From: a virus
Reading direction: 5' to 3' (one strand)
IMG/VR virus record: IMGVR_UViG_3300025133_000242
Coordinates: 1 to 41,937 of that record
Length of the DNA: 41,937 nt
Position 1 is the stretch's first letter. Each line of letters opens with the position of its first letter. The notes below the pieces were generated by a model. That model did no database searches and was not told where the DNA came from. It saw only the letters and a program-made list of their open reading frames with translations. Below are positions 3,337-41,937 of this stretch, in pieces. A program made the translations under genes and the position numbers.

Positions 3337-4902
3337 ATGGAATACAACTTACCTAGTGAGATTGTCAAGGATTTAAACTTTGGTAATAACGCTAAACAAA
3401 GAATAATATATGGAGTAGACAAATTAACACAAGCTGTTAAATCTACTTTAGGTGCATCAGGTAAATGTGTAATTTACGAAGATGCCCGAGGGAAACCGGT
3501 CATAACAAAAGACGGTGTAACAGTAGCAGAGTCTGTTGTCTTATTTGATCCGGTTGAAAACATAGGGGCTACGCTTATTAAAGAAGCGGCTCGAAACACG
3601 GTACGGGAGGCCGGGGATGGTACTACTACTGCCACTGTTATAGCTGAAGCGCTGATAAAAGAAGTTGACAAACAAGGAGAGGGAACGTCTATCAGGGAAA
3701 TTAAAGAAGGTATTAACTCTGGACTTGAAAAAGTTAATGAATATCTTGAAAAAGTCTCTGTTAATATTGAGGGTGATATGCTAGAGTCTGTTAGTTCTAT
3801 TAGTTCTAACAATGATATTGCTCTTGGTAAAATTATTGCAGAGGCTTACAAGGAAGTAGGGAAGGATGGGGTTGTTTTAATGGAAGAATCAGAGACAGAA
3901 AAGACCTATGTTGAACTAGTTGACGGTGTTCAGATGGATGTTGGACTTACATCTCCGCACTTTACTACAGATACAGAAAAACAACGCGCGATATTGGAAG
4001 ACCCACTAGTCTTAATTATTGCATCGGAGATTCCTAATGTAAGAAAAATACAAAAGATCTTAGAATTTGTTATAAAGAACAAAAAACCGCTTTTAATAGT
4101 TGCTCCGGTTGACCAACAAGTAAAAGCGGCACTTTTAATGAACAAGGTCAAGGGTAATATCAAGGTAAATGTAATTGACCTTCCGGGTTTTGGCCCAACA
4201 AAGCTAGATACTATAGAAGATTTAGCACTTTTGACCGGGGCTAAGGTGATAAATGAGGAACTTGGTGATGATTTAGACCTAGTTGACGTAGATTGCTTAG
4301 GAAAAGTGGAAAAAAGTGTTACAGATGACAAAAATACTGTAATTACTACTTATGACGTTGCTGATAGTCTTGATGAGAGAATAAAAGAAGTTAAAAAAGC
4401 TATCAAAAAAGAGAAGAATGGATTTTTAAAGAAGAAACAAGAGGATAGATTAGCAATGTTGACAGGTTCTGTTGGAATTGTAAAAGTTGGTGCTAATTCT
4501 AAAGTTGAACTCAAAGAAAAAAAAGATAGAGCAGAGGATGCTATCTACGCTACAAAAGCGGCTTTGAAAGAAGGTATCGTCCCAGGTGGTGGAGTTGCCC
4601 TGCTCAATGCTTCAGATAATATATCCGTTAAAACAGTGGGTGAAAAGATACTAATGGAAGCTATTAAAGCTCCTTACAATGTTATCTTAGAAAATGCTGG
4701 TATAGAGAATGTAGACTTACCAAGAGAAGATGGATATGGTATCGATGTTATAAGTGGTAACGGTGTAGATATGATAGAGCGTGGAATTATAGATCCACTA
4801 CTCGTTACTAAGTCTGCTTTAAAAAATGCTGTAAGTGTAGTATCAACGATTATATCAGCTGATTGTGTAATTTCAAATATGAGGACGAATGAAAGCAATT
4901 AA
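3337..4902 (+). CDS. groEL: Phage chaperonin GroEL (Hsp60)
   Basis: A 521-aa group I chaperonin, an ATP-driven folding chamber in the cytoplasm. The equatorial ATP-site residues are present: TKDG with D59 (E. coli D52), AGDGTTTAT with D94 (D87) and D401 (D398), plus PGGGVALL. The apical part aligns throughout (SPHF, KPLLIVAP, LPGFG), though the substrate/GroES-contact tyrosines Y199 and Y203 are replaced by L and H. It ends right after the equatorial domain and lacks the GGM tail, so it is about 25 residues shorter than E. coli GroEL. Hand alignment places N448, V459 and D460 at the ring-ring contact positions R452, S463 and V464. Its 3' end overlaps groES by 14 nt. It is flanked by phage genes on the same strand, so it is a true phage gene. 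Confidence 0.95.
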   Translation: MEYNLPSEIVKDLNFGNNAKQRIIYGVDKLTQAVKSTLGASGKCVIYEDARGKPVITKDGVTVAESVVLFDPVENIGATLIKEAARNTVREAGDGTTTATVIAEALIKEVDKQGEGTSIREIKEGINSGLEKVNEYLEKVSVNIEGDMLESVSSISSNNDIALGKIIAEAYKEVGKDGVVLMEESETEKTYVELVDGVQMDVGLTSPHFTTDTEKQRAILEDPLVLIIASEIPNVRKIQKILEFVIKNKKPLLIVAPVDQQVKAALLMNKVKGNIKVNVIDLPGFGPTKLDTIEDLALLTGAKVINEELGDDLDLVDVDCLGKVEKSVTDDKNTVITTYDVADSLDERIKEVKKAIKKEKNGFLKKKQEDRLAMLTGSVGIVKVGANSKVELKEKKDRAEDAIYATKAALKEGIVPGGGVALLNASDNISVKTVGEKILMEAIKAPYNVILENAGIENVDLPREDGYGIDVISGNGVDMIERGIIDPLLVTKSALKNAVSVVSTIISADCVISNMRTNESN

Positions 4903-5146
4903 TCACTATATAATTATAGAAAAAATAAAAGAGGGACCTAAAAAAGTTGGTGGTTTAATTATGACAGACGAAACCGATGTTGACAATAGGTACTTAAAAG
5001 CAAATATAATTTCTACAGGAAACCTCGTAGAAGGATTAAAAGATGGAGATATAATATATTACGATAAACATGCGGGACACGCAATATCGTGGAAAGACAC
5101 ATTATACCATGTAATCCGTTCACAAGACGTTGTTTTAGTAGAATAA
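4889..5146 (+). CDS. groES: Phage co-chaperonin GroES
   Basis: An 85-aa Cpn10 that should cap the GroEL chamber. The mobile loop has the expected VGGLIMTDE segment (residues 20-28), with LIM in place of the IVL tripeptide that binds GroEL. The core continues as KANIISTGN, DGDIIYYDK and a C-terminal DVVLVE strand. E. coli GroES has 97 residues; the missing length lies between ISTGN and DGD, where the roof hairpin of the dome is encoded. T4 gp31 also lacks that roof. The ATG overlaps the end of groEL, so the two are translationally coupled, in the reverse of the usual bacterial groES-groEL order. Confidence 0.9.
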   Translation: MKAINHYIIIEKIKEGPKKVGGLIMTDETDVDNRYLKANIISTGNLVEGLKDGDIIYYDKHAGHAISWKDTLYHVIRSQDVVLVE

Positions 5147-8604: not shown

Positions 8605-9414
8605 ATGAGTATAAACAAAATAAATGGAGTTGTATCTGATACTTTATCTAAAGTAAATGGAACTAACGACGCATTACTAAGTAATATGTTGGTTCCTAGT
8701 AATCTTGCTATCGCTCCTATGTTTAATAGTCACTCTATAGATCTTGATGGTTCTGCTGATTACATTGATTTAAATACTGTTGTGGGGGATATAGATACAG
8801 ATGCTGGCGCTGTAACTTTATGGTTTAAAATAGATACTGATGCTACTTGTCAACTATGGAAAACTAATCAAGGTTCAAGCGCTGCTCAAAATCAAATACA
8901 GATATATTATAATTCGGCTAATGGTAAAATAGTATTTCAACAAAAATATAATGGCGTATCAGTCACTTGGAACTCAACTGCAATTACCTCTGGTGATGGT
9001 AATTGGCATTTTATTGCTATGAGTTGGTCAGATCTTGATTTTATTGCTTATTTAGATACAGAAGCAAGTGGTGTACAAACTTTAGATCAAAGCGGAACAA
9101 CACCAACACCTTTTAACCCTGGTGCGTGTACGGCTGGTAGAAATTCAGCTGCATCAAATTTATATCTTGATGGACATCTAAATGAGATTGGTATGTGGGA
9201 TGCGGAATTAAGTGCTACTGCTCTAGTCGCTATTTATAATAGTGGTAAAGGTATTAACTTAACAAGGGATGTGGGTAACTATACTAACGCTAGCGATTTA
9301 ATCGGGTATTGGAAAATGGAGGAAAATACAGGAAATACCGTTGTAGATAGCTCTGGTGGTGGTGAAACAGGCGCTTTAAACGCGACAGATTTATGGTCAA
9401 CAGATACAATATAA
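8605..9414 (+). CDS. LamG/concanavalin-like surface protein
   Basis: A 269-aa protein whose residues 44-245 read as a Laminin_G_3 jelly roll: HSIDLDGSADYIDL, then AVTLWFKI, then GDGNWHFIAMSW, then LYLDGHLNEIGMWD and finally LIGYWKMEE. In this family the fold binds sugars or glycoproteins, often with calcium. In a phage it would sit on the virion surface and touch host polysaccharide. The N-terminal 40 residues may anchor it. Its ATG starts just after the stop of the fibre-like gene, so the two are probably co-expressed. Confidence 0.75.
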   Translation: MSINKINGVVSDTLSKVNGTNDALLSNMLVPSNLAIAPMFNSHSIDLDGSADYIDLNTVVGDIDTDAGAVTLWFKIDTDATCQLWKTNQGSSAAQNQIQIYYNSANGKIVFQQKYNGVSVTWNSTAITSGDGNWHFIAMSWSDLDFIAYLDTEASGVQTLDQSGTTPTPFNPGACTAGRNSAASNLYLDGHLNEIGMWDAELSATALVAIYNSGKGINLTRDVGNYTNASDLIGYWKMEENTGNTVVDSSGGGETGALNATDLWSTDTI

Positions 9415-22350: not shown

Positions 22351-25300
22351 ATGGCCGAGTTAAAGCATCAATTTACTGGGGGTCGAATGAACAAAGACCT
22401 AGATGAAAGATTAGTTCCAAATGGAGAATATAGAGATGCGCTAAATGTTAATGTTAATGTGTCAGAGGGTTCTAATGTTGGTACTGTACAAACGACATTA
22501 GGTAACATACTACATAGAGTTAAGTGTACACCATACGGTCAGCCAGCAATCCAATCTTTCACACTCCAAGCTAGATGTATAGGTAGTATTACTGATGAGA
22601 AAAATGATAAATTGTACTGGTTTATTGCTGATGAAGGGGCTGGAATTGATTCAATAGCAGAGTACGATATAAATTTAGGTACTATACGACCCGTAATAGT
22701 TGATACGTATTATAACACTGGTGGTCGAAGAGCTCTTAATTTTAGTAATAGTAATTATATAACAGGTATTAATATAATTGATGATATGCTTTTTTGGACA
22801 GATAACTATTCTGAACCAAAAAAAATAAACATTCCTAGATCTATACAGGGATCAACTGATTTTTGTACTTGTACTAAGTTTCTAACAAAAGATTATCATC
22901 GACCACTTGGCGGTGAGTTGATCGATAATGGAAATTTTTCCGCCGGTAATACTGGTTGGAGTGTACCGGGTTGGTCAACTTGTAATCTAGGCGTAGATGA
23001 TTGGGTAATTAATAACGGTGTATTACAGGGGTTACAGGGTTGTGCATCTTATGCACGTAATACTTTTACTACTCCACTTACTAACGGTAGTTATTACAAG
23101 TTAACGTACACGATTCTTACCGAAAGCTCTACTTCAGGAATTATCAGTTTATACTGGCATGACACTGCGGCTTGGCCAGGAGGAAGTCCTAATATAGAAA
23201 TACCAGGCACGGTAGGTACTCACTACGTAATTTTTCAGCAAAGCAATCCTAATCAAAGCCATTGGAGCTACTCACAACTTGGACTTAGTCTTCACATGGA
23301 TTGGACCGGTGTAATAGATCAAATATCTTTGGTTGAGGTTGATCCTCAATCCGATCCAGTAAATTCAGTCACTGGAGAACCTATACTTACCACCTTACAA
23401 GATTCTCCTTGTATCGAAGAAAAACACATCACAGTTATAAAAGAAAATCCAATATTCAGACCAGTTCTGGAGATGAGCCAAACCCCTAGTAGATCTTCCG
23501 AAGATATTAGCGGCTTAATAGGACCTATAGATGCAGCTGTAGCTGTAGTTTGGGGACAAACCATAGGTGCTACTTGGACTTCAACTAATGCGGCTTGGTG
23601 GGCTGATAACAACGGTATAATGGGGTGGCATGGAACTGGAAGTTATGCAACTTCCGCGTATCCTCCGGGGCACCTGCAGTGGTTTGTTTTTATAGGTAAC
23701 CCGAGTTGGAAAGTAGGAGATATTTTAATATTAACTAGTAGTTCTGATCCTTCTCGAGAAAAGCAAGTTAAAGTTGAAGTGGTAGCACTTGGAGGTGGAT
23801 TACCTGGCTTTCCTAACCACAGCACTTATCGACTTAAAATTCTATCTATAGAAGACGGTGTTGATGCAGCAGATTTATCATGGACAGCAACACTAGAGCC
23901 TGTTACAACCTCTCTTTTTGAATTTAAGTTTCCGAGGTTTGCCACTAGATATAAATATCAAGATGGAGAATACTCTGCCTTCTCTCCTTTTACTGAAATA
24001 GCATTTTTACCTGGTAGACCAATGGATGAAGATTTCAAATACGAACCTAAACAGGGTTTTAATTTGGGTATGACTAATAACGTTAGGTATTTAGCGATAA
24101 AAAACTTTGTTCCTGAAAAAGATGTTTTACCAGATGGAGTAATTGCTATCGATATTTTATATAAAGAATCTGACTCCCCAAATGTATACATAGTAAAAAC
24201 TATAACTCCTGGCGATGTAGAATGGAACACGCAAATAGATGGTGGTAGTACCCTTAGTGGAACAAAGGGATATACAAGAATAGACTCCGAAATGATTCAC
24301 GCTGTATTACCAGAGAATCAATTATTGCGCCCCTGGGACAATGTACCTAGAAAAGCTTTAGCTCAAGAAGTTTCAGGTAATAGAATAATATATGGTAATT
24401 ATTTACAGAACTATACAGTTCCATCTATAGAACTTGAAATTGGGTTACATTCTACATGTATAAATCCTGATTGTGGAAATGGCTTAGAGCTTGGTATTCC
24501 AGAAGAGATATATCCTGAAAATGCACATACTTATCTTCCTGCAAAATCTATAAAAACATTAAGAACGTATCAATTAGGTGTTGTATTTAGAGATAAATAT
24601 GGTAGAGAAACACCTGTAATTACTGATGACGCTAGAATTAGTTTATCAGGTAAAGCCTCTATATATGTAGAGAAAGAATGGTCGGATTGGGGAAATAGCT
24701 TAACAGCAAAATTACACACGCAACCACCATCATGGGCCACTACATATAAGTGGTTTATAAAAGAAACTTCTAGTGAATATTATAACTTAGCTTTAGATAG
24801 ATGGTATGACGCACAAGATTGGAACGTTTGGTTATCTTTCCCATCTTCAGAAAGGAACAAAGTAGATATAGAAACTTTTTTGATATTAAAAAAGGAAGAA
24901 GATTCAAATACTTTTGTTCATGATGATGGTAGATATAAAATTTTAGCTATTGAAAATGAAGCCCCTGACTACATAAAAGAAAGACATTTAATTTTAGCGA
25001 TACTTTTTGATAATCCTTCTGCAATATCAAACCCTGCAATCCCGGCAAATGGGATTATTGGTCAAGCTGGTGGTTTAGGATTTCCATTAGCCACTGGTAA
25101 TTTTATTTGGATAGATGAATATGAGTTACGAAATCAAGGTCTTGTTGACTCTGTTTCCGGTGAGTTAACTTTAGATACGTCTAAAAATTTATTTCTCAGA
25201 GTTACAGGGACTAACATATATTCAGAATGGTATTATATACAATCTATAACGGCACAAACATGGGCTGGTAACGCTCCTAGCGCATTACCATTTTGGCAAT

Positions 25301-28300
25301 TCAAGGTTGAAGGTATGTTTGATACTGACATGAATTTTACATCTACAGGTAATTCTTACGCTACGAGGATCTCCGGCTTAGCAGTGGAAATAAAAGAAAT
25401 AGTTACTGAAGATAGGCCTGAATTTGACGGTAGATTTTTCGCTAAAATACATAGAGATCTTACCTTAGAAGATTCCATAATTAAATTTGGTCAAGCGGGT
25501 ACGAATTGGTCGGTTTTACAAAGATTTAACACTACTTATATCGGGCCAAGGTGGACAAATGGATATCAAAACAACTCTCCTAATGCAGGAACAGGGAATA
25601 TTGATTCGCCGAATTGGGCTTACAACAATATTCTTAGGGACAATTATACGAATCTTCATGATTGGGCAAATAATGAATGGCACGGATGGGGTAACAATCC
25701 TGATTACGCTTACGGCCAAATGGGGGGTAATAATGCTGAAGAATATTGGGATAGATTAGGTGGTGGAGGTGGATTTTCATGGAACTATGCAAATTCAGCT
25801 TATCCGGCTACAATGTTTATAGACAATACTGAATATTCAGTCCCATCTTATGATAGGCATGGCTTCATGTGTAAGCATTATTCTAACACTTGCTGTTGTG
25901 GGGTCTGCGATTGGAGTGGTGATACTACACCATATTGCCATATGCATTATTGGCTTCGCACTGGCGGCCAATTCACAAGTGCGAATGGAGGGATTTCTGG
26001 AGATGCAATGCGTTATCGAAGAACAACAGGAGGAACATGGGGAATATCACGAAATAGTAAAAATATTTCACTAAGCCTATCTGGAACAGGGAAAGACTCT
26101 TTAAGTTATCGTTGTTCCGGATATCACGCTTCTGGTATATCGCATTCTGGGATGAGTGGTACCGATAAGGGTAATTCTAGTATTTCTCCACCTAATTTAT
26201 TATCAAGTTCAGCTGGAATAGGTGGTAATCCAGGTCTTTTTGTCCCACATCAAGCCTTTTTAACTGCTATTAGAATCCCTGGTACATTGTGGAGATGGCA
26301 AAATGATCCAGATCAAGTTGTGTATAGGACTTTACCAACTGGTAAAAGTGATGACATTGTATTCAATATGCAATTTTATCATGACAAAAGAGCCGGTAGT
26401 TGTGGTCATTTTGTTTTTTGTAATTGTGGTAACACTGGCGCTACTTCTCCTAGAGATCTAATAGCCGAACAATTATCCCCACGAGGTAGAAGACATATAT
26501 TTAAATTTCAAGCAGAAGTTGCTTTTGGACCTTCAGCCGGTCAACCGCCAGGAAACGCTGGACCAGCTGGATATTTACCAACAAATGATCCGCGCTTTAT
26601 CCAGGGACACCCAAATTACATGTGGAAAGGTACTGGTGCTCCTACTACTGGTACTTTTCCTGGTACTATTGTAACCGCTCATACAATTCTTTCTCCTGGT
26701 TTTAATCCAAATGGATATGCACCTGGTTTACGAAGCGACGGTATGAGAGATGGAGAAAGTTCCTGGAGCCCTATGCAAAACGGTTGGCAAACAGTTGGTG
26801 CGACTGGTCGATGGAAAGGCACTGAAGTGTGGGAAATAGTTAGTCCAGTCCAAGGAGGCGAAAGGGAAGGTGGGATAAAATTCCCTAGTACTAGTCCCGC
26901 TATATTTGAAACAGAACCAAAAGAAGATGTAGGACTTAATATATATCACGAGATTGGTCAAGTGTATCCAGTGGCGTATGGTTCTGAGACAAATGAATTA
27001 TTTACACCTGTAGGTTCTTTAGTAACATGCTGGAGATCTGGCACGGGCTTTGTTAATTTAGGTGGATCTGGGACAAACGTACCTGGCTCAGGAGATCCTT
27101 GGATTCCACCTATTAAAGTTAAGGCATGTAATGATAATACCGTTGACTTAGTGGATGCTGCAGGAAACTTATTCGTAAGTGATACTGCTTGGCCAAACGA
27201 ACACATTGCACAATGGGATATTTTAGTTTTTACTAGACCTGATGGTAGCACTACGGAAAGTCAAGTTAGAACAGATCCAAATGGATTATCTACATACACA
27301 TTAGACGTGTGGGCGTGGCCATATAAAGTGGTGTTACCTTGGTTTAATTGTTACTCTTTTGGAAACGGCGTAGAATCTGATAGAGTTAGAGATGACTATA
27401 ATCAAGTAACAATTGACAATGGGCCTAAGGCATCTACAACTTTAGATGATCCTTATCAAGAAGAAAGAAGAGGTAGTGGATTGATATATTCTGGCATATA
27501 TAATTCTATAAGCGGGGTAAATAATTTAAACCAATTTATAGCGGCTGAAAAAATAACTAAAGATTTAAACCCAACGTATGGCACTATACAAAAATTATTT
27601 TCTAGAAATACGAATTTAGTAACATTATGTGAAGATAAAATTCTAAAAGTATTAGCTAATAAAGATGCTATGTACAACGCGGATGGAAATATTAATGTTA
27701 CTTCTAATTTAAATGTCTTAGGTCAATCTGTTCCTTTCGTAGGTGAATATGGGATATCCAAAAATCCTGAATCATTTGCTTCAGAATCTTATAGGGCATA
27801 TTTTTCAGATAAACAAAGAGGTGTTGTTTTAAGATTATCACAAGATGGTGTAACTCCAATTTCAGAATTCGGTATGAAAGATTGGTTTGCTGATCATTTA
27901 TTATTAGCAAATAGAATAATAGGTAGTTATGATAGTAAAAAACAACTTTATAATATAACTTTAGGCAGTGAAGGTGAAAGAACCACCGGACCACAGCTTG
28001 ATCTCCAAACTCGCCTTCCACTTAGAATTGGCTTAGGATTAGGACCAAACCCATGTGATAACTTACCTTGTAATCAAAATTGTGTTCCTCCAGAATTACC
28101 ATCATTACCAACTTCATGGGGACCGTCATGGACACATCAAAACGGTACTACATATTATCCTGGTGATGAGTACGCCGCACCTGGATGGGGAGGTATAGAT
28201 ACCACTATAGGTGGTCCTACAGATGGAAAATGGGGGAGTCGAATTATTACAAGTTTAGCAACTTGGCCTAATTTTTTACTAACTAATAAATGGAATACTT

Positions 28301-31272
28301 TTTTCTCTGAATGTCCTACGAATCTCTTTCCTCCATGGGACGTTTGGAATTCAGCTCCTCCGGCAGCTAATTCGTCTGGTATTATGCTACGTTCTAATAT
28401 AAACCATCCCGCACAACCTCCCCACGATTCTGTGCACGATCACAATTCTTCTGGAATTATGTGCAAAGTAGATGGTTTATGTGTTGGTGAAGAATATACA
28501 ATAGAAGTTGAATATGCGGAGGGGTGGGGAACTGGTAATTTAGTTATAGGTTTAGAAGATGCCGCTGGAAATCCTGAAGGTATTATTACGGGTAATGATG
28601 GGGTAAATTATAACGTATTGTATGGTTTCCATTATAGCTTCCAGAGTTTTGGGCCTAATTTCGGGTCAGCTGGTGTAATTAATAGTATGCCATTTACAGC
28701 TACACAAGCAGATGATAATATATTGGCAATAGATTGGCATGGAACTGGGGATTATACCCATTCTCATCTCTTTCCTTGTCCTTCACAGGCAGTATATCCA
28801 TTAATAGGTTGTACTGGCACTTTGAATGGTTTTAATCCACCCATGCAACCATTTATGATAACTAGTGTAAAATTAAAATGTGTAAATCCACCCGCAGTTA
28901 TATGCGGATGTACTGATCCCACAGCCTCTAACTATAATCCTAATGCTACAATAGATGATGAGAGTTGTGTTCCGATACAAGGATGTTTATGTCCTGATGG
29001 AACGATAGATATTCTTTGCTGTCCTGGTTTTCCTAATAATTCTTTTTATGAATATTTTAAAACATTAAGTTTTTCTGAAAACTCTAAAGGATGGGTAAGT
29101 TTTAAATCCTTCATGCAAGAAGATGGATTAAGTTTGAATAACACATATTTTACGTGGTCCGAAGGACAGTTGTGGGAACATCATGCTAATCCTATTAGAA
29201 ATAATTATTATGGTAAGCAATTTGATTCTTCTATTAATATATTGTTTAATGAAGCCCCTGAAACTGTTAAGAGTTTTGTTAATGTAAATTATGAAGGTAG
29301 TCAATCGAGAATAACTCAAGACATAACTGCTATTGCTACTGGTGGTTTATATAATGATATCCCACATTTTGATGATGTTCCAAAGGATGGTTGGTACGTA
29401 GAGTTTATGGAAACAAATTTACAAACCGCCGGTGTTTTAGAGTTTAAAAATAAAGAAGGTAAGTGGTTTAGTTATCCAAGGGGTGAAAAAACAGAATGGC
29501 ATAATGATAACCCGGCATATTGGGGTGCTGATAGAGGTAATATAGATCCTAGAGAATTCTCTTACCAAGGTATTAGTAACAACTGCTGTAGAACAATAAA
29601 TAATGGCGGAGTTATAACACAAACAGGTACATGCTGTCAATTGCCGTGTACAGATCCTACATTTAGTATTGTGAGCGTTACTGATATTACAGTAGATACA
29701 TCTACTACTCCATGTACGTTAAACGCTGATGGGGAAATACAGATAACAGCGACATCTACAACTACTAATTGCACAACGTGGGATATAGAATTAGTTTATA
29801 CGGGAAGTGGTATTATGCCTAGTACCACAATATTGAATTGGCCAGGGAACGCAAATGGAGCTACATTGACTATTCCAAATCTTATAGCTGGACCATATAC
29901 ACTTAATATTACCTGGTGTAATGGTGGTCCTAATTGTTTCGCTTCAACCACTGTGACTATTGGGTCCCAATCAGTTGTTAGTGGCTGTACAGATCCTACC
30001 GCGTTAAATTATAATCCTAGTGCGGTTTGTGATGATGGTAGTTGTGTTTATCCAGTTCCTGGTTGTACGGATCCTAGCGCTATAAATTGTGATCCTGGTT
30101 GTAATGGTTATAATCCACTAGCAACAGTAGATGATGGTAGTTGTTGTGTAGTAGGTTGCCAAGATCCATCAGCTAATAATTACGTTGCTGGAGCTCATTG
30201 TCCATTACCATGTTATTATAACCCATCGTGGAATTGTAGTGGAAACACTGGTGCTGTTAGTAACGGAGTTGTTATAGCTCCATGGAATTGCTACGATCCA
30301 GGAAATGGTACAGGTCAATATCAACTGGAGCAAAATTGCATAAATGGATGTCAAGCAAATTCGTGTGGTATTTCGAACGCTGTATATAATAGCAACGGTA
30401 GCATTACGTTTACTTATAATGCCCCGCAATGGTTACCTGGAGATAGTCTTCATTATCGGGTGGAAGAATATGGAAATGGAGTCGTCCTTCTTGGTAATCA
30501 ATTCCTAAACCAAATAGCATTGAGTGCGGGTAGTGGTACAATCACAACAGCGGCTACGCTTGCTGGGTATGGAATGGTACAAATAAAGGTTATGCATATA
30601 CCTAATTTGACTACAAATCCTGGAGTGAGTACTGTTGAATGTTCGTTCCCTATTGACACAGGAATAAACCCTACATATACATGTAGTGGTTATAATGGTG
30701 CGACAGATTCAAATGGAACTTTTCACGCGCCTATGACATGCTATGATCCTTTAGATGGTTCAGGACTGTGGCCTGGGACTGTACAGGGACTAGCTAGCTG
30801 TAGTCAAACTGGATCTTGTCTTACTGGAGCATGTGGTGCTGCAACGGGTGGTTGTTGTCCACATGTTTGTTGCTTTGCTGGAGGGGGATCAAATGACGGT
30901 TTAAACTCTAATGGTTCTATAACTTTTTCATGGAATTTAGATAGTCACAGTTGTAACCATTGTACTCAATTTGGTGGCACCGCTACATTTGAGCTAACAG
31001 AAAACACAGTAAGCAATTTGGGTGTCTTATGGACCTTTACAACAACGCAGTGCGTTGGAACAGTAACCATCCCAGCTTTTCATAATGGTCATGATTTTGC
31101 AGCAATTTATGCGAACGGAGTAGGTAGTCCTCCATTTGTTATAAATGGCAGCTCACGAACAACATGTGTAGATTGTTGTGGTGCAAATTACATACCCCTA
31201 ATTCAGCAACCTGATGGCGGGTCGGGAATGGGAAGTACGTGTTCCTGGTCATTTGGTTTAAGTGGAAATTAA
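22351..31272 (+). CDS. Giant tail (muzzle/nozzle-like) protein with adhesin repeats
   Basis: A 2,973-aa protein. The core has blocks I recall from marine and crAss-like podovirus tail tubes: FTGGRMNKDLDERLVPNGEY at the start, LFEFKFPRFATRYKYQDGEY near 522, IYSGIYNSISGVNNLNQFI near 1712-1730, VGEYGISKNPESFASESYRA near 1797-1816, and GWVSFKSFMQEDGLSLNNTY near 2249. Accessory parts interrupt or extend it: a jelly-roll-like region with NGNFSAGNTGW (about 186-357), a Cys/Gly-rich part around 1060-1300, a region with one GCTDP repeat (about 1885-2230), and a C-terminal extension from about 2430 with a SprB-like region, three more GCTDP-type repeats and a duplicated Cys-rich module. It is likely the distal tail and receptor-contact protein. 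Its length is unusual for a podovirus tail tube. Confidence 0.7.
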   Translation: MAELKHQFTGGRMNKDLDERLVPNGEYRDALNVNVNVSEGSNVGTVQTTLGNILHRVKCTPYGQPAIQSFTLQARCIGSITDEKNDKLYWFIADEGAGIDSIAEYDINLGTIRPVIVDTYYNTGGRRALNFSNSNYITGINIIDDMLFWTDNYSEPKKINIPRSIQGSTDFCTCTKFLTKDYHRPLGGELIDNGNFSAGNTGWSVPGWSTCNLGVDDWVINNGVLQGLQGCASYARNTFTTPLTNGSYYKLTYTILTESSTSGIISLYWHDTAAWPGGSPNIEIPGTVGTHYVIFQQSNPNQSHWSYSQLGLSLHMDWTGVIDQISLVEVDPQSDPVNSVTGEPILTTLQDSPCIEEKHITVIKENPIFRPVLEMSQTPSRSSEDISGLIGPIDAAVAVVWGQTIGATWTSTNAAWWADNNGIMGWHGTGSYATSAYPPGHLQWFVFIGNPSWKVGDILILTSSSDPSREKQVKVEVVALGGGLPGFPNHSTYRLKILSIEDGVDAADLSWTATLEPVTTSLFEFKFPRFATRYKYQDGEYSAFSPFTEIAFLPGRPMDEDFKYEPKQGFNLGMTNNVRYLAIKNFVPEKDVLPDGVIAIDILYKESDSPNVYIVKTITPGDVEWNTQIDGGSTLSGTKGYTRIDSEMIHAVLPENQLLRPWDNVPRKALAQEVSGNRIIYGNYLQNYTVPSIELEIGLHSTCINPDCGNGLELGIPEEIYPENAHTYLPAKSIKTLRTYQLGVVFRDKYGRETPVITDDARISLSGKASIYVEKEWSDWGNSLTAKLHTQPPSWATTYKWFIKETSSEYYNLALDRWYDAQDWNVWLSFPSSERNKVDIETFLILKKEEDSNTFVHDDGRYKILAIENEAPDYIKERHLILAILFDNPSAISNPAIPANGIIGQAGGLGFPLATGNFIWIDEYELRNQGLVDSVSGELTLDTSKNLFLRVTGTNIYSEWYYIQSITAQTWAGNAPSALPFWQFKVEGMFDTDMNFTSTGNSYATRISGLAVEIKEIVTEDRPEFDGRFFAKIHRDLTLEDSIIKFGQAGTNWSVLQRFNTTYIGPRWTNGYQNNSPNAGTGNIDSPNWAYNNILRDNYTNLHDWANNEWHGWGNNPDYAYGQMGGNNAEEYWDRLGGGGGFSWNYANSAYPATMFIDNTEYSVPSYDRHGFMCKHYSNTCCCGVCDWSGDTTPYCHMHYWLRTGGQFTSANGGISGDAMRYRRTTGGTWGISRNSKNISLSLSGTGKDSLSYRCSGYHASGISHSGMSGTDKGNSSISPPNLLSSSAGIGGNPGLFVPHQAFLTAIRIPGTLWRWQNDPDQVVYRTLPTGKSDDIVFNMQFYHDKRAGSCGHFVFCNCGNTGATSPRDLIAEQLSPRGRRHIFKFQAEVAFGPSAGQPPGNAGPAGYLPTNDPRFIQGHPNYMWKGTGAPTTGTFPGTIVTAHTILSPGFNPNGYAPGLRSDGMRDGESSWSPMQNGWQTVGATGRWKGTEVWEIVSPVQGGEREGGIKFPSTSPAIFETEPKEDVGLNIYHEIGQVYPVAYGSETNELFTPVGSLVTCWRSGTGFVNLGGSGTNVPGSGDPWIPPIKVKACNDNTVDLVDAAGNLFVSDTAWPNEHIAQWDILVFTRPDGSTTESQVRTDPNGLSTYTLDVWAWPYKVVLPWFNCYSFGNGVESDRVRDDYNQVTIDNGPKASTTLDDPYQEERRGSGLIYSGIYNSISGVNNLNQFIAAEKITKDLNPTYGTIQKLFSRNTNLVTLCEDKILKVLANKDAMYNADGNINVTSNLNVLGQSVPFVGEYGISKNPESFASESYRAYFSDKQRGVVLRLSQDGVTPISEFGMKDWFADHLLLANRIIGSYDSKKQLYNITLGSEGERTTGPQLDLQTRLPLRIGLGLGPNPCDNLPCNQNCVPPELPSLPTSWGPSWTHQNGTTYYPGDEYAAPGWGGIDTTIGGPTDGKWGSRIITSLATWPNFLLTNKWNTFFSECPTNLFPPWDVWNSAPPAANSSGIMLRSNINHPAQPPHDSVHDHNSSGIMCKVDGLCVGEEYTIEVEYAEGWGTGNLVIGLEDAAGNPEGIITGNDGVNYNVLYGFHYSFQSFGPNFGSAGVINSMPFTATQADDNILAIDWHGTGDYTHSHLFPCPSQAVYPLIGCTGTLNGFNPPMQPFMITSVKLKCVNPPAVICGCTDPTASNYNPNATIDDESCVPIQGCLCPDGTIDILCCPGFPNNSFYEYFKTLSFSENSKGWVSFKSFMQEDGLSLNNTYFTWSEGQLWEHHANPIRNNYYGKQFDSSINILFNEAPETVKSFVNVNYEGSQSRITQDITAIATGGLYNDIPHFDDVPKDGWYVEFMETNLQTAGVLEFKNKEGKWFSYPRGEKTEWHNDNPAYWGADRGNIDPREFSYQGISNNCCRTINNGGVITQTGTCCQLPCTDPTFSIVSVTDITVDTSTTPCTLNADGEIQITATSTTTNCTTWDIELVYTGSGIMPSTTILNWPGNANGATLTIPNLIAGPYTLNITWCNGGPNCFASTTVTIGSQSVVSGCTDPTALNYNPSAVCDDGSCVYPVPGCTDPSAINCDPGCNGYNPLATVDDGSCCVVGCQDPSANNYVAGAHCPLPCYYNPSWNCSGNTGAVSNGVVIAPWNCYDPGNGTGQYQLEQNCINGCQANSCGISNAVYNSNGSITFTYNAPQWLPGDSLHYRVEEYGNGVVLLGNQFLNQIALSAGSGTITTAATLAGYGMVQIKVMHIPNLTTNPGVSTVECSFPIDTGINPTYTCSGYNGATDSNGTFHAPMTCYDPLDGSGLWPGTVQGLASCSQTGSCLTGACGAATGGCCPHVCCFAGGGSNDGLNSNGSITFSWNLDSHSCNHCTQFGGTATFELTENTVSNLGVLWTFTTTQCVGTVTIPAFHNGHDFAAIYANGVGSPPFVINGSSRTTCVDCCGANYIPLIQQPDGGSGMGSTCSWSFGLSGN
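28906..28968 (+). repeat. GCTDP Cys repeat 1 in the tail protein
   Basis: Residues 2186-2206 read GCTDPTASNYNPNAT then IDDESC. This is the short Cys-bounded repeat seen in many secreted proteins of marine flavobacteria. It stands apart from the other copies, inside a presumed insertion in the tail core. Confidence 0.8.
29983..30213 (+). repeat. Cluster of three GCTDP-type Cys repeats in the tail protein
   Basis: Three units follow each other: residues 2545-2565 (GCTDPTALNYNPSAV, DDGSC), 2571-2598 (GCTDPSAIN with a 7-residue expansion, then NPLATVDDGSC) and 2602-2621 (GCQDPSANNYVAGAH, decayed end). Each is bounded by cysteines, with D/N-rich loops fit for calcium binding. The progressive divergence suggests duplication followed by decay. 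Confidence 0.8.
30226..31160 (+). repeat. Duplicated Cys-rich module at the tail protein C-terminus
   Basis: Two units of roughly 150-170 residues. Unit A begins CSGNTGAVSNGVVIAP (C2629) with WNCYDPGNGTGQY, unit B begins CSGYNGATDSNG (C2778) with MTCYDPLDGSGLW; both are followed by a Cys-rich link and a beta domain starting NSNGSITF (first copy at 30388, second at 30904). The second unit ends near the protein's C-terminus. Confidence 0.65.
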
Positions 31273-31299: not shown

Positions 31300-32799
31300 A
31301 TGGAAGAAGATTGTGGAACATGCGGAAGTGTTGTTGACGCACCAGAAGTTAAAGAGAACGAAAATCCATCCTTTGGAATGTTTATAGATGCCCCTAGTAG
31401 ACCGGAAGAAGGAAGTAAGTTTATACCGACTAGTGGTGGAAGTTTTTCTATAACAATAACTGGAGAATCAAAAAGTATTTTTACATTAGAAATAGAAGAT
31501 AAAGACGGCTGTAGTGTTTTAAAATCACCTTTAAAAGATATATCTATTCCGGCAAATGGAAAATATACCTTCACTCAAAAATTTTCACCTTATACCTCTG
31601 ATAAAGACGAATATACTTTTAAATTAGGAGGTGATATGAATCATTTTACTATTAAACAATATCCACAACCAACAATAACTCTTAAACAGTCTTCGAGTTC
31701 TAACGCCACTACAAACCCGCAAACGTTAACACTATCTGGCGATGATATCACTTCAACAGGTAATCCATTTGAGCCCGTTGATGGAGTTCCTGTTACAACT
31801 TTAAAATGGGATAACAGAGCAAAAAAATATATAAACGAGGTAACAGTTAGTCCTGGTATAGAAGATGTAAGTTGGACAGTTGCAAAAGCAGGGGATTATG
31901 CTGGTAATTTATATATTTCTAGACTCCCAAATAATAACGATATTAGTATAAATGCGTCTTATACTAATACTGTAGCAAAAAAAGTAAATAGTGCTGTTGT
32001 AGAATTATCTTCAGACACTGCGGATATTAAAGAGTTAAACTATATTTCAAATGTAAAAATAACTTCCACTATAACTAAAACGGTTAAAGAAAGTGTTGGT
32101 ATTACCTCTTGTGACACGGTAACTGATAAATTTAAATTAAATAATATAACAAATCTTTTAGTTGGAATGAGTATAGTGGGAGAAGGTGTTAGTGGATCTG
32201 TAATAACCCATATAGATTATGGAGATAATATTATAACTGTTGATGCTGAGAGAGTTGTAAAAGACGGTACTGAGTTAACGTTTTATTACAATGCTATAGT
32301 AATGGAATCTATAAAAGATCATCATAGTATAAATCTTGAATATCCACAAAAAATTCATAAAGGTGCTACTATAGTTTTTGAAAACAACATTTCAGAAATA
32401 AACGCATCACTAACAACTAGTGGAAGTGGAAGTGGTACTATAACTATAGGTGGAACATTTTTTGTAATTAATTTTGGAGATAAAGATGTAATATATTCAG
32501 TAAACGTAGATAATTTTATAACTAATACGCCTAATGCTTATGACCAAGACGTGTTTGTCACAAAAGATACGACTGTGGACATTAATATGGTTCTTCATGA
32601 TGCTGATTTAAATGCTAGTGATAAAACGGGCACTGTTATATCGGGTCCGAGTCATGGATCTGTAAGCGAGATTAGTGAAGATAGTATTGTTACATATACA
32701 CCATACATTGGATATGCCGGGAAAGACAAGTTTACGTTTACAATGGGGGATGGAGAAAATGCTAGTGCTGAAAAAACAATTTATATAACCGTAATATAA
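31300..32799 (+). CDS. Multi-domain beta surface protein with cadherin-like end
   Basis: A 499-aa acidic, beta-rich protein. It starts with MEEDCGTCGS (a CxxC) and contains several Ig-like or barrel segments (SFSITITGESKSIFTLEIED; NLLVGMSIVGEG with the GMxI turn shared by other virion proteins here). Residues 415-499 match the cadherin-like/Big_9 pattern: DVFVTKDTTVDINM, SGPSHGSVSEIS, TYTPYIGYAGKDKFTFTMGDG. Such domains build stiff extracellular rods in Bacteroidota proteins. It begins 27 nt after the giant tail gene behind an AAATAAAACAAAT leader, so it is likely a partner on the tail or a head fibre. Confidence 0.65.
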   Translation: MEEDCGTCGSVVDAPEVKENENPSFGMFIDAPSRPEEGSKFIPTSGGSFSITITGESKSIFTLEIEDKDGCSVLKSPLKDISIPANGKYTFTQKFSPYTSDKDEYTFKLGGDMNHFTIKQYPQPTITLKQSSSSNATTNPQTLTLSGDDITSTGNPFEPVDGVPVTTLKWDNRAKKYINEVTVSPGIEDVSWTVAKAGDYAGNLYISRLPNNNDISINASYTNTVAKKVNSAVVELSSDTADIKELNYISNVKITSTITKTVKESVGITSCDTVTDKFKLNNITNLLVGMSIVGEGVSGSVITHIDYGDNIITVDAERVVKDGTELTFYYNAIVMESIKDHHSINLEYPQKIHKGATIVFENNISEINASLTTSGSGSGTITIGGTFFVINFGDKDVIYSVNVDNFITNTPNAYDQDVFVTKDTTVDINMVLHDADLNASDKTGTVISGPSHGSVSEISEDSIVTYTPYIGYAGKDKFTFTMGDGENASAEKTIYITVI

Positions 32800-36525: not shown

Positions 36526-39500
36526 ATGAATAACAAAGCTTTAAATCACGCGTACGATTTATTTGTAAACGATGGTTATAACGGTAGTCCTGAGGATTTT
36601 AGTAATCTCATGGCTACTGATACAACTGCTGTTGACCACGCTCATTCTTTATTCAAAAATGATGGTTATATAAATAGTATAGAGGATTTTCAAGATCTTA
36701 TTAAAGATGAATCGGCAAAACCTGAAGATGTGGCTAAGAGCGCGGTTATGGGTGCTTTTTATGAATCAAAACTGCCTTCACATATTAAGAAAGGTATGAC
36801 AATTGTTAATGTTATAAAAGCCTTACCACAAATAGCTACTGATAGTGAAGAGAGAGCCGAGCTTGGTAAATTCTTAAAAAACAGATTAGATAATGTTCCA
36901 GAAGCTTTTCAAAGCGCTTATCATTCTGCGGTAGCAGCGGCCGCTGATTTATTTACAGCCGACCTAGATGGTCTTGGTTATAATGAAAAATCACGAGAGT
37001 GGAGAGATAAGGCTGAAAAAATTATTGTTAAACAATATGAAGAGTTAGAAAAATTAGAATTTAAAGATACCGGTACGGGTATAGTAGCTGGAGCGAAAGA
37101 AGGAGATGCAGCTAGTTTAATAGCTGGAGTTTTTGGCGCTGGTGTTAGCATGGCAGAAACAGTTATACCAGCAACATTAACGTATGGATTGTCACTACCT
37201 GTTCAAATTGCAGCACCAATGTATACGGATTATAACAAGGCTAAAGCTAAGTCATTATATGGAGATGATCCTGATGCTATTGAAAAACTTGTAGAAAACG
37301 ATCAAACAGAAATAGCAGTACCACTAGCTTTAGGCGCTGTTGCTACATCGCTTGAATATATAGGGTTAAAAGGCGTGACAAAATATATACAATCTGTTCC
37401 TGGAAAAGGTACGCAATTAGCTAAATTAATGTGGGTTGGTAGTGGTGAGGGTTTTACGGAAGTTGGACAGCTAGGAACTGAAAGATTAAATGAAGGTTTA
37501 GGCGCTGGAAAATCTATAGAAGATGCGGCTAAAGATTCTTGGGATGCTATGGCTAGCGATGAAGGATTAGAAATGTGGTTAAATGGGTTTTTAGGTGCAA
37601 CGCAGATAAGCACTGCTGGTAGTGTTGTAAATAGAGCTTTGAGAAGTGATAACGCTAGCGTAAAAGAAGTGAACGATAAAATAAATAATTTAGCTGATTT
37701 AAATAATAAAAAATACAGTACAAGAAATCAAGACGTAAAAGATGCTATTAATTTAGAAGTCAAAGCAGCAGAGCAAGATCTTAAAAATTATATAAATGAA
37801 AAAAGAAAAATTAACGAAGTATTAACTGAAAATGAAAAAACGTCTTTAACAAATACTTTAAATGAAAAAGACAATATAAAAACAAAGATTGAGTCTTTAA
37901 AAAACCAGTTAGAAGATGGTAATATTAGTACTAAAGAGTTTGGTTACGCTATTAGAGGTTTAAATAATCAAGATAAAAAATTAAGCGAACAATTAAGTGG
38001 AGTACAATCCGCGGCAATAACTAGAGCTGCAGAAAAAGTTACAGAAACAGTAAAAGAACAAATAAAAGAAGCTGGATTAAAAGGTGAGGTTACAGAGATG
38101 ACTTCTGAAGAAATATCTGAAATTAAAGAAAAAGGATTTGATTCTAAAGAAGCGTCTAAACAATTTGGTTTTATTAGACAAGAAACTGATGGTAGTTTTG
38201 AAATAATATTAAACAAAGATAAACCAATGGTTGGTACAGCTGCCCACGAGTTTATGCACGCTGTGTTATTTAAAACTATTGGTGCTAATAAAGATATACA
38301 AAATAACTTAGGAGACGCTTTAGTTGAACACACACAAGAGCTAGGTGGTGATAAAAGTATATTAGGTGAAAGATTATCTAATTACGGAAAGTTTGAAAAA
38401 GACGGAACGTTTATTAGAGATGATAACTTTGGTGAGGAAACTATAACTATAATGTCTGAATCTATTATTGATGGTAGTTTAAAGTTTGAAGAAAACTTCT
38501 TTACTAAAATTGGAAATATTGTTAGAAGGTTTTCACAAAACTATTTAGGTAAAGAAATTACATTTGATACTGGAAGAGATGTTTATAACTTTGTAAAAGA
38601 TTATAGTAAAAGTATTAAAGACGGTAAAATAAGTCCGGCTATATTAAAAGTGGCTAAAGAAGGTATTAAAGGTAAATTAGTTGAAGGTAAAGTTGAAGCA
38701 AAACCTACAGTTCAAATGTCCAAAGCTGCCGCTGAAACCGTTAATAAAATATACAAAGAAAAAGGTGTAGCTGGTGCTGGTGATATAGCCGGTCCAACTG
38801 GTCCTTATAAAAAAATGGCTGATGTTATGTTTCAAAGAAATCTTGACAATGCTCCTACGACCGACATTAGACAAAATCTACTTGATAATAAAGAAGATAT
38901 AATAGCTGATATATTATACTCACCAGGAACTGAAACAGCAAAAGCTAGAACAGTACTAGGGTTAGTTCAAGATTACCCTGCGTATGTAGAAAAACAAAAA
39001 AAGGCAGGTAAAAAAGTAGCGCCCCTATCTGGATTTATAAACAATATGATAGGAGATAGAGCTAAGGCAGTATATGCGCCTTATGGCGTTGAAATGGCAG
39101 TTGTAAAATCAATAGAACAGGAAGCTATAGCTAAGGAGGTTGAAAAAATAGAAACTAAACCACAAGATGTTATATTAACTGAAAGAGTATTAGAACAATA
39201 TAAAACACCTTTATTATCTGGATTAACTTTTGTTAAAGATCAAATAAACGTATTAAGAAAAACTGTATCGAGAGTTGTAGGTACTAAGTTATCAGATATA
39301 GACGCTGCCGTATCTAAAAACAGATCTGTTAGTCCACTAATAGCTGATATGAAAGCTGAACTTTATGTTAAAAATGGACCTATACATAAAATGGTTTATG
39401 ATATTATGAGTGAGAAAACTGAAGCTTTGACTCAAGAATATTTAAAGAAAACAAATCCTAAAACTAAAAAACTATACACCGAAAAAGAAGCAAAAAACCA

Positions 39501-41937
39501 AGCGTTTAAAGACTCTGTAGAAGCGTTCTTTAAAAATCCTAAATACAAGAAAGCTGTATTAGAATCTTTAACGACAACATGGTTGGCTAAGCATTTACCA
39601 ATGGGTGTAGAAAAGAAGATTGTTGGGGTTGGTTGGTCTAAATATGATGTATGGAAAGGTAGAAAGAAAGGTACTAAGAAAGGGGATGTTGAGGCTTGGC
39701 AGTCTAGCGAAGAAGGACCATATAAAGGTATGACAGATGGCAAACAAAAGATTAGAAGAAATCCTAAAATTATGGGTGATATTACTCCAGCTATGCTAGG
39801 AAGCGCTTTTATAAAAGGAGAGACTATTACAGATGTTAAAAGAGGTGGTTTAGAAAACATATCTTTAGCGATCACACAAGAACTAGGTATAGAAACATTT
39901 AAAGCTGATATGATAAACGATGGTGCTTTAAAGAAGTTGTTTGTTAATAGACAGGATTTATTTAATAGATTGTTAAAAGATAATTTTGTTGATGAGTTTG
40001 TTAAACAGTCAGAAAGAGGTACTACTAAATTTAGTAGGTCTGGCACTCCGGAAAATGCAATAGAATATAATGGTAAAAAAGCGTCTAGTTTGTTAGATGT
40101 AACTGATACTAAAAATACAACAGCAATAATGGGTGGTCTAAAATCAATATTTGAAGATTCACCAAATGAATTAACTAAAGTCACTGAACTTTTAGAAGAG
40201 TTTGTTAGTCAAGTTGTAGGTATTAACGAACAAACTATGACTGAGGATCAAAAAAATGAATTACTAATTGAAACAGTTAAAGATAAAGAACTCTTACAAA
40301 TAGCCTTAGAAATTACTTACGGCGATATACTAGATTCTAAAACGTTAAAAGATGTTGGTAATGTAATAACTAACGTATTGAAAGATGTAAAAGTACAAAA
40401 GAAAGCTAAAGTTATAACAAAAACTAATGCCGCGATAAATGCTATTTTAAAATCAGAAGAAGTTGCGCGTGTAAAAATTGCTAAATTTACTAATAGTGAC
40501 ATAACAGCTATAGACGCTCAACAAGATGAGATTAACCAAGAAACACAAAGAAAGTACGATAATAAATTATTTCACCAATCGTACAAAGAGATGATTGATG
40601 ACCCTAAAAACCCTGGAACTAAAATAAAAAACCCAAACTACAAAGGTAAAGAACAAGCTATAGCTGATTTAATCATGCGGCAAGGACATTCTTCTACTAG
40701 CGGTAAAATTGGTGGCCGTAGAGGACAATTTTATAAAAGTACGAGAGATTATTATAATAAACACTTAAAAAGTGTTAAAATAACTCCAGTTTATAATAAA
40801 AAAGGTGGTTTAGATGTTGTGGCTACAGCTAAAAAGAATGGTTTAAAAAATATACCAGAAACTAAAGCCCCTCAAACAAGCGTTTCAGCTATTAAAGCTC
40901 ATGTCCAAGCGTTGTTAGGTGATAAGAAACCTTTACAAGAAAGAAGAGCTCATGAAAAACATGCGCGGAGAGTGTTAAATGAATATGTCGAGTTTTATGC
41001 TAATGAGTATAATGCTGGTAATATTGATAACGTTGACATGATGTTAATGATGAACAGTTTATTGTCAAACATGAATAGTGTTTTAGCTAGAGCCGCTAAA
41101 TTAAATTTAGTTCAACCAGGAGTTAAGGCAACTAATACTAGATATGAACATGGTCAACCACGGGTAGCTGTTTTAATACGTTTAGTTAACGAATGGGTTA
41201 ATAAAGACGGCGTTACGGATATAGATGCGTTTTTAGAGAATTATGATGTTAATATTATAGATAAAAAATTCGATGACGCTATAACTGACGCTGGTTATAA
41301 AGCAACTTTAGCTGAAGGTCAAACGTTTGAAGATCCCTCTTACGGTAGAATGTACAATGATAAAACTAGAAATGACAAAAGAGTTCAGGCACTCGTGAAA
41401 GTTGGTACAAAAAAAATACCTAAACCTATAGAAGCTTTTATGAAATCTAACAAGATGTTGAAAGCTAAATTAAAAGAGTTTCAAACTTTAAATAAATCTA
41501 TTAATTTCTCTCGTTCATCTAAAAATCCCACTAAAGGTATGAGTGCGTGGGATTTTGATGATACTATAGCTAGAACAAAATCTGGAGTGCGATATACTTT
41601 ACCTAATCCAGAAGGTACACCTCAACCTGGTAGAAAAGTTATATTTATGGCTGGTGGTCCTGGTTCAGGAAAATCAACAGTTATAAAAGGTTTAGATTTA
41701 AAAAATCAAGGATTTAAAGTTGTTAATCAAGATATATCGTTAGAATGGTTAATGAAAAATCATGGCTTACCTACAGACATGAGAGATTTCACTCCAGAAC
41801 AAGCTAGTACATTTGGTAAACTTGGATTTGATGCAGGGATGATAGCTAAACGTAAGCGAATGAAATTCCAAGGTAAAGGAGATGGTATTATTATAGATGG
41901 AACTGGAAATAGCTTAAAGGTTATGGAAAATGCAGTT
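36526..41937 (+). CDS. Giant polyvalent-type protein: zincin, HAD and P-loop motifs (3' end outside window)
   Basis: Open from ATG 36526 to the window edge: 1,804 residues with no stop found. Order: two N-terminal repeats (7-28, 37-58) with DLFVNDGYNGSPEDF and SLFKNDGYINSIEDF; a hydrophobic, Gly-rich part (about 183-280); a charged coiled coil (about 380-500); a zincin motif GTAAHEFMHAV (H574, E575, H578); a long unassigned middle; HAD motif I WDFDDTIAR (D1676, D1678, T1680); and 30 residues on a P-loop MAGGPGSGKST (K1716) followed by VVNQDI and DGIIIDGTGN, as in zeta-toxin/polynucleotide-kinase-like enzymes. Giant multi-enzyme proteins of this kind ('polyvalent proteins') are injected with phage DNA. 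It follows two likely ejected proteins. Delivery and all activities are inferred. Confidence 0.75.
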   Translation, partial: MNNKALNHAYDLFVNDGYNGSPEDFSNLMATDTTAVDHAHSLFKNDGYINSIEDFQDLIKDESAKPEDVAKSAVMGAFYESKLPSHIKKGMTIVNVIKALPQIATDSEERAELGKFLKNRLDNVPEAFQSAYHSAVAAAADLFTADLDGLGYNEKSREWRDKAEKIIVKQYEELEKLEFKDTGTGIVAGAKEGDAASLIAGVFGAGVSMAETVIPATLTYGLSLPVQIAAPMYTDYNKAKAKSLYGDDPDAIEKLVENDQTEIAVPLALGAVATSLEYIGLKGVTKYIQSVPGKGTQLAKLMWVGSGEGFTEVGQLGTERLNEGLGAGKSIEDAAKDSWDAMASDEGLEMWLNGFLGATQISTAGSVVNRALRSDNASVKEVNDKINNLADLNNKKYSTRNQDVKDAINLEVKAAEQDLKNYINEKRKINEVLTENEKTSLTNTLNEKDNIKTKIESLKNQLEDGNISTKEFGYAIRGLNNQDKKLSEQLSGVQSAAITRAAEKVTETVKEQIKEAGLKGEVTEMTSEEISEIKEKGFDSKEASKQFGFIRQETDGSFEIILNKDKPMVGTAAHEFMHAVLFKTIGANKDIQNNLGDALVEHTQELGGDKSILGERLSNYGKFEKDGTFIRDDNFGEETITIMSESIIDGSLKFEENFFTKIGNIVRRFSQNYLGKEITFDTGRDVYNFVKDYSKSIKDGKISPAILKVAKEGIKGKLVEGKVEAKPTVQMSKAAAETVNKIYKEKGVAGAGDIAGPTGPYKKMADVMFQRNLDNAPTTDIRQNLLDNKEDIIADILYSPGTETAKARTVLGLVQDYPAYVEKQKKAGKKVAPLSGFINNMIGDRAKAVYAPYGVEMAVVKSIEQEAIAKEVEKIETKPQDVILTERVLEQYKTPLLSGLTFVKDQINVLRKTVSRVVGTKLSDIDAAVSKNRSVSPLIADMKAELYVKNGPIHKMVYDIMSEKTEALTQEYLKKTNPKTKKLYTEKEAKNQAFKDSVEAFFKNPKYKKAVLESLTTTWLAKHLPMGVEKKIVGVGWSKYDVWKGRKKGTKKGDVEAWQSSEEGPYKGMTDGKQKIRRNPKIMGDITPAMLGSAFIKGETITDVKRGGLENISLAITQELGIETFKADMINDGALKKLFVNRQDLFNRLLKDNFVDEFVKQSERGTTKFSRSGTPENAIEYNGKKASSLLDVTDTKNTTAIMGGLKSIFEDSPNELTKVTELLEEFVSQVVGINEQTMTEDQKNELLIETVKDKELLQIALEITYGDILDSKTLKDVGNVITNVLKDVKVQKKAKVITKTNAAINAILKSEEVARVKIAKFTNSDITAIDAQQDEINQETQRKYDNKLFHQSYKEMIDDPKNPGTKIKNPNYKGKEQAIADLIMRQGHSSTSGKIGGRRGQFYKSTRDYYNKHLKSVKITPVYNKKGGLDVVATAKKNGLKNIPETKAPQTSVSAIKAHVQALLGDKKPLQERRAHEKHARRVLNEYVEFYANEYNAGNIDNVDMMLMMNSLLSNMNSVLARAAKLNLVQPGVKATNTRYEHGQPRVAVLIRLVNEWVNKDGVTDIDAFLENYDVNIIDKKFDDAITDAGYKATLAEGQTFEDPSYGRMYNDKTRNDKRVQALVKVGTKKIPKPIEAFMKSNKMLKAKLKEFQTLNKSINFSRSSKNPTKGMSAWDFDDTIARTKSGVRYTLPNPEGTPQPGRKVIFMAGGPGSGKSTVIKGLDLKNQGFKVVNQDISLEWLMKNHGLPTDMRDFTPEQASTFGKLGFDAGMIAKRKRMKFQGKGDGIIIDGTGNSLKVMENAV

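Follow-up and report, generated by a model that had tools for sequence, protein, structure and literature searches.

A linear virus sequence of 41,937 bases from IMG/VR (hereafter the window, meaning the whole stretch analysed) encodes a GroEL and a GroES of the phage's own, and this GroEL probably functions as one ring of seven subunits. This reading, drawn from sequence comparisons and a structural model, is based on the loss of three ring-ring contact elements, the relaxed constraint on the ring face, the retention of the ATP site and within-ring contacts, and the fact that the chaperonin of phage AR9 shares the erosion. A single-ring build had been proposed in a first-pass annotation of this DNA, and all of the sequence and model tests available to us support it; from them we infer the ring state.

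The groEL-groES locus, the phage and its probable host

By sequence, the product of the open reading frame at 3337-4902 (+ strand; groEL, 521 aa) is a group I chaperonin. It matched Pfam PF00118 over residues 30-514 (E = 1e-52), which corresponds to the full-length Cpn60 domain, as well as PHROG 5725 (E = 5e-132), and a BLASTP alignment of 526 columns gave 37% identity to E. coli GroEL; its AlphaFold2 fold agreed with membership in group I. A GroES-type partner is present at the gene level, as groES (4889-5146, + strand; 85 aa) begins 14 nt inside the end of groEL and encodes a co-chaperonin that matched PF00166 (E = 5e-8) and PHROG 3188. For comparison we used a family of 81 members, consisting of the window GroEL and 80 relatives at 72-89% identity. 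The ATP-site aspartates, all three of which had been described as kept, are indeed Asp59 (3511-3513), Asp94 (3616-3618) and Asp401 (4537-4539, all on the + strand), matching E. coli D52, D87 and D398, and they were invariant in 81/81 family members. The R197-E386 between-subunit switch, however, was lost throughout the family: Val202 (3940-3942, +) replaces R197, with S, C or V there in 81/81 members, and Lys389 (4501-4503, +) replaces E386, with Lys in 81/81. The D83-K327 pair was likewise lost in all 81 (K, R, S or T at the first position and a gap at the second). With regard to the canonical staggered double-ring contact residues, the window GroEL retained one of six ring-ring features and its family 0-3, compared with 5-6 for each of 76 bacterial GroELs. 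Since group I includes single-ring forms, the missing contact residues remove the claim to a double ring, not the claim to be a chaperonin.

Genes for a holin, the terminase large subunit and a portal protein lie downstream of groEL-groES. The terminase was closest to that of an uncultured podovirus from Manatee Spring (63%), followed by those of Flavobacterium and Cellulophaga phages (45% for the best of these), and a 2973-residue protein encoded at 22351-31272 carries a crAss-type muzzle C-terminal domain, a tie to the crAss-like tail design. Based on the terminase relatives and the muzzle domain, the phage probably infects a member of the Bacteroidota. The phage nearest by terminase also encodes groEL and groES (MW202828.1, 28672-30562), yet its GroEL is only 36% identical to that of the window, so that chaperonin genes may be swapped between related phages or may diverge much faster than the terminase. 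Elsewhere in the window, the open frame at 36526-41937 exceeds 1804 residues and continues past the end of the record; close to its visible end it has a protease-like motif (HEFMH) and a P-loop of kinase-like type (GGPGSGKST), and it may encode a very large virion protein. The products of 8605-9414 and 31300-32799, which contain LamG-like and bacterial Ig-like domains, are probably virion surface or adhesion proteins.

Ring-ring contact elements and constraint on the ring face

E434 of E. coli GroEL belongs to the left-site ring contact, as a partner of K105. That site otherwise consists of K105 and A108-M111 on helix D and of a bridge from K105 to D435, whereas the second, right-hand site comprises R452-E461, S463, V464 and N467 (PMC7174398, PMC7960994, PMC5575113). 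Alignments to E. coli GroEL showed that all three contact elements are altered in the window protein. At the tip of helix D in the left site (residues 110-118; 3664-3690, +), one residue is deleted and E115 stands in place of A109, as seen in alignments and the AlphaFold2 model. The loop before helix N, which holds the E434/D435 region (residues 427-435; 4615-4641, +), is seven residues shorter in the alignment. In the right site (residues 445-468; 4669-4740, +), N448 replaces R452, the segment is five residues shorter and the helix at 462-471 is missing, again in alignments and model alike. BLASTP placed 16 gap positions across the 526 columns, 13 of them within the three contact elements; because these 13 fall in approximately 10% of the chain, and because the elements were intact in 76/76 bacterial GroELs, the alterations exceed what chance would produce.

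The first-pass annotation had dealt with the right site alone, and for that site much of its description held: the coordinates and residue numbers were correct for the 521-aa frame, N448 fell at R452 in every alignment made, and the following stretch, estimated as about five residues shorter, proved to be exactly five shorter (14 versus 19 residues from G459 to the next strand, counting both end glycines). The changes in helix D and in the E434 loop had been missed. Its placement of V459/D460 opposite S463/V464, with E457 opposite E461, agreed with MAFFT but shifted with gap placement, as evidenced by a phmmer alignment to 6kfv that set N458/V459 at S463/V464, which would restore V464, and by the BLASTP alignment to E. 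coli GroEL, in which E460-V464 were deleted entirely. We therefore rejected a residue-by-residue reading of E461, S463 and V464; as the single-residue pairing depends on the gap, the right-site claim is better worded as the loss of a segment than as separate substitutions.

The bacterial base rate was taken from 76 full-length GroELs of GTDB genomes from many phyla, which were the most phage-like among those scanned, so that any bias favors phage-like forms. Position 452 was R or K in 75 of these proteins and position 461 was E or D in 76. In the phage family, R or K at 452 occurred in about one in nine members, and R/K452 together with D/E461 in 8/80. A hydrophobic residue at 464 was found in 76/76 bacterial GroELs, as opposed to 15/80 or 30/80 family members depending on the pairing. 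Segment lengths also differed: the helix D segment had 17 residues in 76/76 bacterial proteins and 14-17 in the phage family, the M-N loop had 17-22 residues in the bacteria and 12 in 81/81 family members, and the N-Q segment had 17-20 residues in all 76 bacterial proteins and 13-15 in 78/81 family members. Loss of the R452 and V464 equivalents, the frequency of which had been left to an alignment, is common in the 81-member family, and many other phage GroELs, that of AR9 included, show related erosion.

An AlphaFold2 model of the window GroEL (50-row alignment, mean pLDDT 86.5) was compared with a model of Zobellia GroEL made by the same procedure (pLDDT 89.1). Helix D spanned residues 96-111 (16 residues) in the window model and was one turn short relative to the control, in which it had 20 residues; furthermore, no helix was modeled between 454 and 466, whereas the control had one at 462-471. 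A PDB fold search matched single- and double-ring entries alike and did not separate the two. The combination of a short helix D and a loop replacing the 462-471 helix is that of gp146 of phage EL, which has also lost R197-E386 and D83-K327 (PMC7185714), and it raises the alternative that the window GroEL, like EL, forms a nucleotide-free double ring through a different, one-to-one contact and becomes single rings upon ATP binding. We consider this unlikely, as in EL the one-to-one contact is made by the N-Q region, whose length and sequence differ between members of the window family; no other stretch of the protein is as variable as residues 457-466. No conserved replacement contact was seen within the three segments of the ring face that were tested, which make up part of the bottom face, and EL acts without a GroES.

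Conservation within the family separated the ring face from the remainder of the protein. The inter-ring positions had a mean entropy of 2.35 bits and the equatorial domain one of 0.71 bits (p = 5e-5 in a permutation test), while the same positions in the bacteria were not unusual (1.24 versus 1.14, p = 0.34). The ATP pocket (0.14) and the within-ring contacts formed by the stem loop and the C-terminal strand (0.21) showed almost no variation. After smoothing, the most variable stretches were residues 457-466, 110-118, 339-345 and 429-434, three of the four being ring-ring elements; residues 339-345 (4351-4371), in the apical domain, were the only hypervariable stretch of the family outside them. 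Pairwise dN/dS was 0.70 on the ring face (672 pairs) and 0.12 in the rest of GroEL, and for 17 disjoint pairs with segments of equal length the values were 0.46 and 0.11, respectively. A surviving ring-ring contact in these elements would keep their positions conserved; since the opposite was observed, the contact has apparently been lost, and the pattern looks like loss rather than exchange for another conserved contact.

Nearly free evolution of the ring face might also be expected of a decaying or moonlighting gene whose chaperonin no longer folds proteins, an explanation that we regard as very improbable given the strong purifying selection elsewhere in GroEL (dN/dS 0.11), the invariant catalytic aspartates and the conservation of groES alongside in nearly all relatives. 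It is also improbable, to a lesser degree, that the protein is an ordinary double ring in which the contacts have drifted and stacking proceeds via other residues, as is the case for Cpn60 of mitochondria or Plasmodium. The P. falciparum protein, which lacks the E. coli contact residues, was nevertheless a double ring in the crystal, and mitochondrial Hsp60 makes footballs with few contacts; both, however, occur as single rings too. Moreover, the contact serine of mitochondrial Hsp60 is conserved among 120 orthologues, unlike the ring-face positions tested in the window family, in which the three elements have changed in length and not simply by substitution. Entries for the E. coli GroEL point mutants E461K (2eu1), E434K (2yey), K105A (4wsc) and A109C (5opw) each contain 14 chains, and these mutants, together with the P. 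falciparum double ring, mean that lost contacts alone are no proof of a single ring. Support for a single ring comes from a resurrected ancestral GroEL that carries an acidic residue at 464, among other changes at that site, and assembles as single rings (PMC12696368).

The GroES partner and a putative one-ring cycle

The position of groES was largely constant, as its start lay inside the end of groEL in 78/80 relatives as scanned, the scan having returned a different ORF in the other two. In the GroES mobile loop, position 25 was Leu in 79/79 family members, followed mostly by Ile and then by Met or Leu, and the window tripeptide reads L-I-M versus I-V-L. In the GroEL groove, Q, K and M replace the bacterial L234, L259 and V264 (alignment). 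The roof hairpin (E. coli residues 49-57) was absent from GroES in 79/79 family members, the window included, as it is from T4 gp31, and a roofless GroES predicts, from its sequence and by analogy with gp31, a cage that is open or larger.

With the single-ring reading preferred over its alternatives, the following cycle can be proposed. The rings would assemble, bind ATP and client protein and be capped by the phage's own GroES, with no stacking into a GroEL-type double ring. As there would be no second ring to signal release, the fit between GroES and GroEL would have to be tuned for self-release, such that GroES leaves unaided after ATP hydrolysis, as has been proposed for mitochondrial Hsp60-Hsp10 and shown for repaired SR1. 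That SR1 and E. coli GroES form a dead-end complex likewise suggests that a working single ring needs further tuning, for which the altered groove residues (Q, K and M, at E. coli positions 234, 259 and 264) and the L-I-M tripeptide of GroES are plausible sites. With a roofless GroES, the cage would be open at the top or have more room there, which may be of use for large phage proteins.

The debate over whether GroEL-GroES can cycle on one ring has so far relied on SR1 variants made by engineering and on mitochondrial Hsp60, a protein that still forms double rings. A natural GroEL with a ring face freed from selection but a conserved ATP site and GroES would offer a clean test of such cycling; if the reading is true, it would reveal how GroES can come off when there is no second ring, and the many relatives would record how that arose. 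A wider proposal, which we put forward tentatively and with more doubt than confidence, is that these phage GroEL-GroES pairs are a large, hitherto undescribed family in which GroEL is an obligate single ring and the matching GroES is roofless, that the second ring has been lost repeatedly in phage chaperonins, and that phages may be a rich source of machines that cycle without a trans-ring release signal.

Comparison with viral and other known chaperonins

Among 83 diverse IMG/VR GroELs, 16 kept five or six of the six ring-ring features and 41 scored 3 or less; most have thus lost part of the contact set. The GroELs of Cellulophaga phi38:1, Flavobacterium elemo, Maribacter Panino, crAss-like cr108, JM-2012 and Vibrio K476 were eroded in differing ways, and those of Bacteroides DAC22 and LR756501 were intact. 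When viral contigs were scanned, the phi38:1, Va1 and cr108 proteins yielded one to three relatives each and the elemo protein 14. In a FastTree phylogeny built without the trait columns, the window family grouped with two relatives at 56% identity, which were also trimmed, in one clade (support 100). Intact proteins (score 5-6) versus the rest, bacteria included, required at least eight changes on the tree, and scores of 3 or less versus the rest, among viruses only, required at least ten; as the long branches (AR9, EL and JM-2012) are unreliable, these do not give a safe exact number of losses. Across viral loci, erosion of the ring face went together with a neighboring groES in raw counts (Fisher p = 1.7e-4), but this link was rejected because it gave no signal in independent tree pairs.

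The phi38:1, elemo and Panino phages resemble the window phage in infecting Bacteroidota, encoding their own groEL and groES and having a partly eroded ring face, but their GroELs are approximately 36-39% identical to the window protein and have lost a different subset of contacts. T4 gp31 is likewise a GroES-type ring without roof loops (PMC6318259); it partners the host's double-ring GroEL, however, and has a longer mobile loop. E. coli GroEL SR1 and its repaired variants are altered at the same contact site, and the repaired forms need a weaker fit to GroES (PMC5575113), but SR1 is engineered, is changed at the right-hand site alone and stalls with GroES. Human mitochondrial Hsp60-Hsp10 also lacks the R452-E461 bridge, uses a co-chaperonin and is active as single rings (PMC7174398, PMC5575113), although football double rings still form through a conserved serine.

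The first-pass annotation cited phage EL as a precedent that works through single rings, which needs correction: EL GroEL forms a double ring, which comes apart with ATP (PMC7185714). Its rings contact one-to-one and its cavity is open. Closer single-ring precedents are OBP gp246 and AR9 gp228, GroEL relatives encoded by phages and built as one ring of seven subunits, of which the AR9 chaperonin was shown to be a single ring by cryo-EM (PMC9598537). AR9 resembles the window GroEL in its eroded contacts, having lost R452 and V464, and carries Glu at 452 and Asn at 464; both AR9 and EL scored 3 for ring-ring features, although they serve only as a rough positive control because alignments are weak at such distance. 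AR9 keeps R197-E386, which the window family has lost. OBP and AR9 further differ in being giant phages with very distant sequences (the AR9 relative Goe21 is approximately 25% identical).

Single-ring phage chaperonins are therefore already known, whereas a GroES-bearing family with a released ring face appears to be new: we found no account of a large family of this kind in the literature, although a study of virioplankton chaperonins (Marine et al. 2017) might mention it. The chaperonins of EL, OBP and AR9 all act without GroES; the window phage encodes one, which adjoins groEL and is conserved. The window GroEL would thus resemble OBP and AR9 in ring state without being of their lidless type, and, if this is true, phage single-ring chaperonins extend beyond those that act without GroES.
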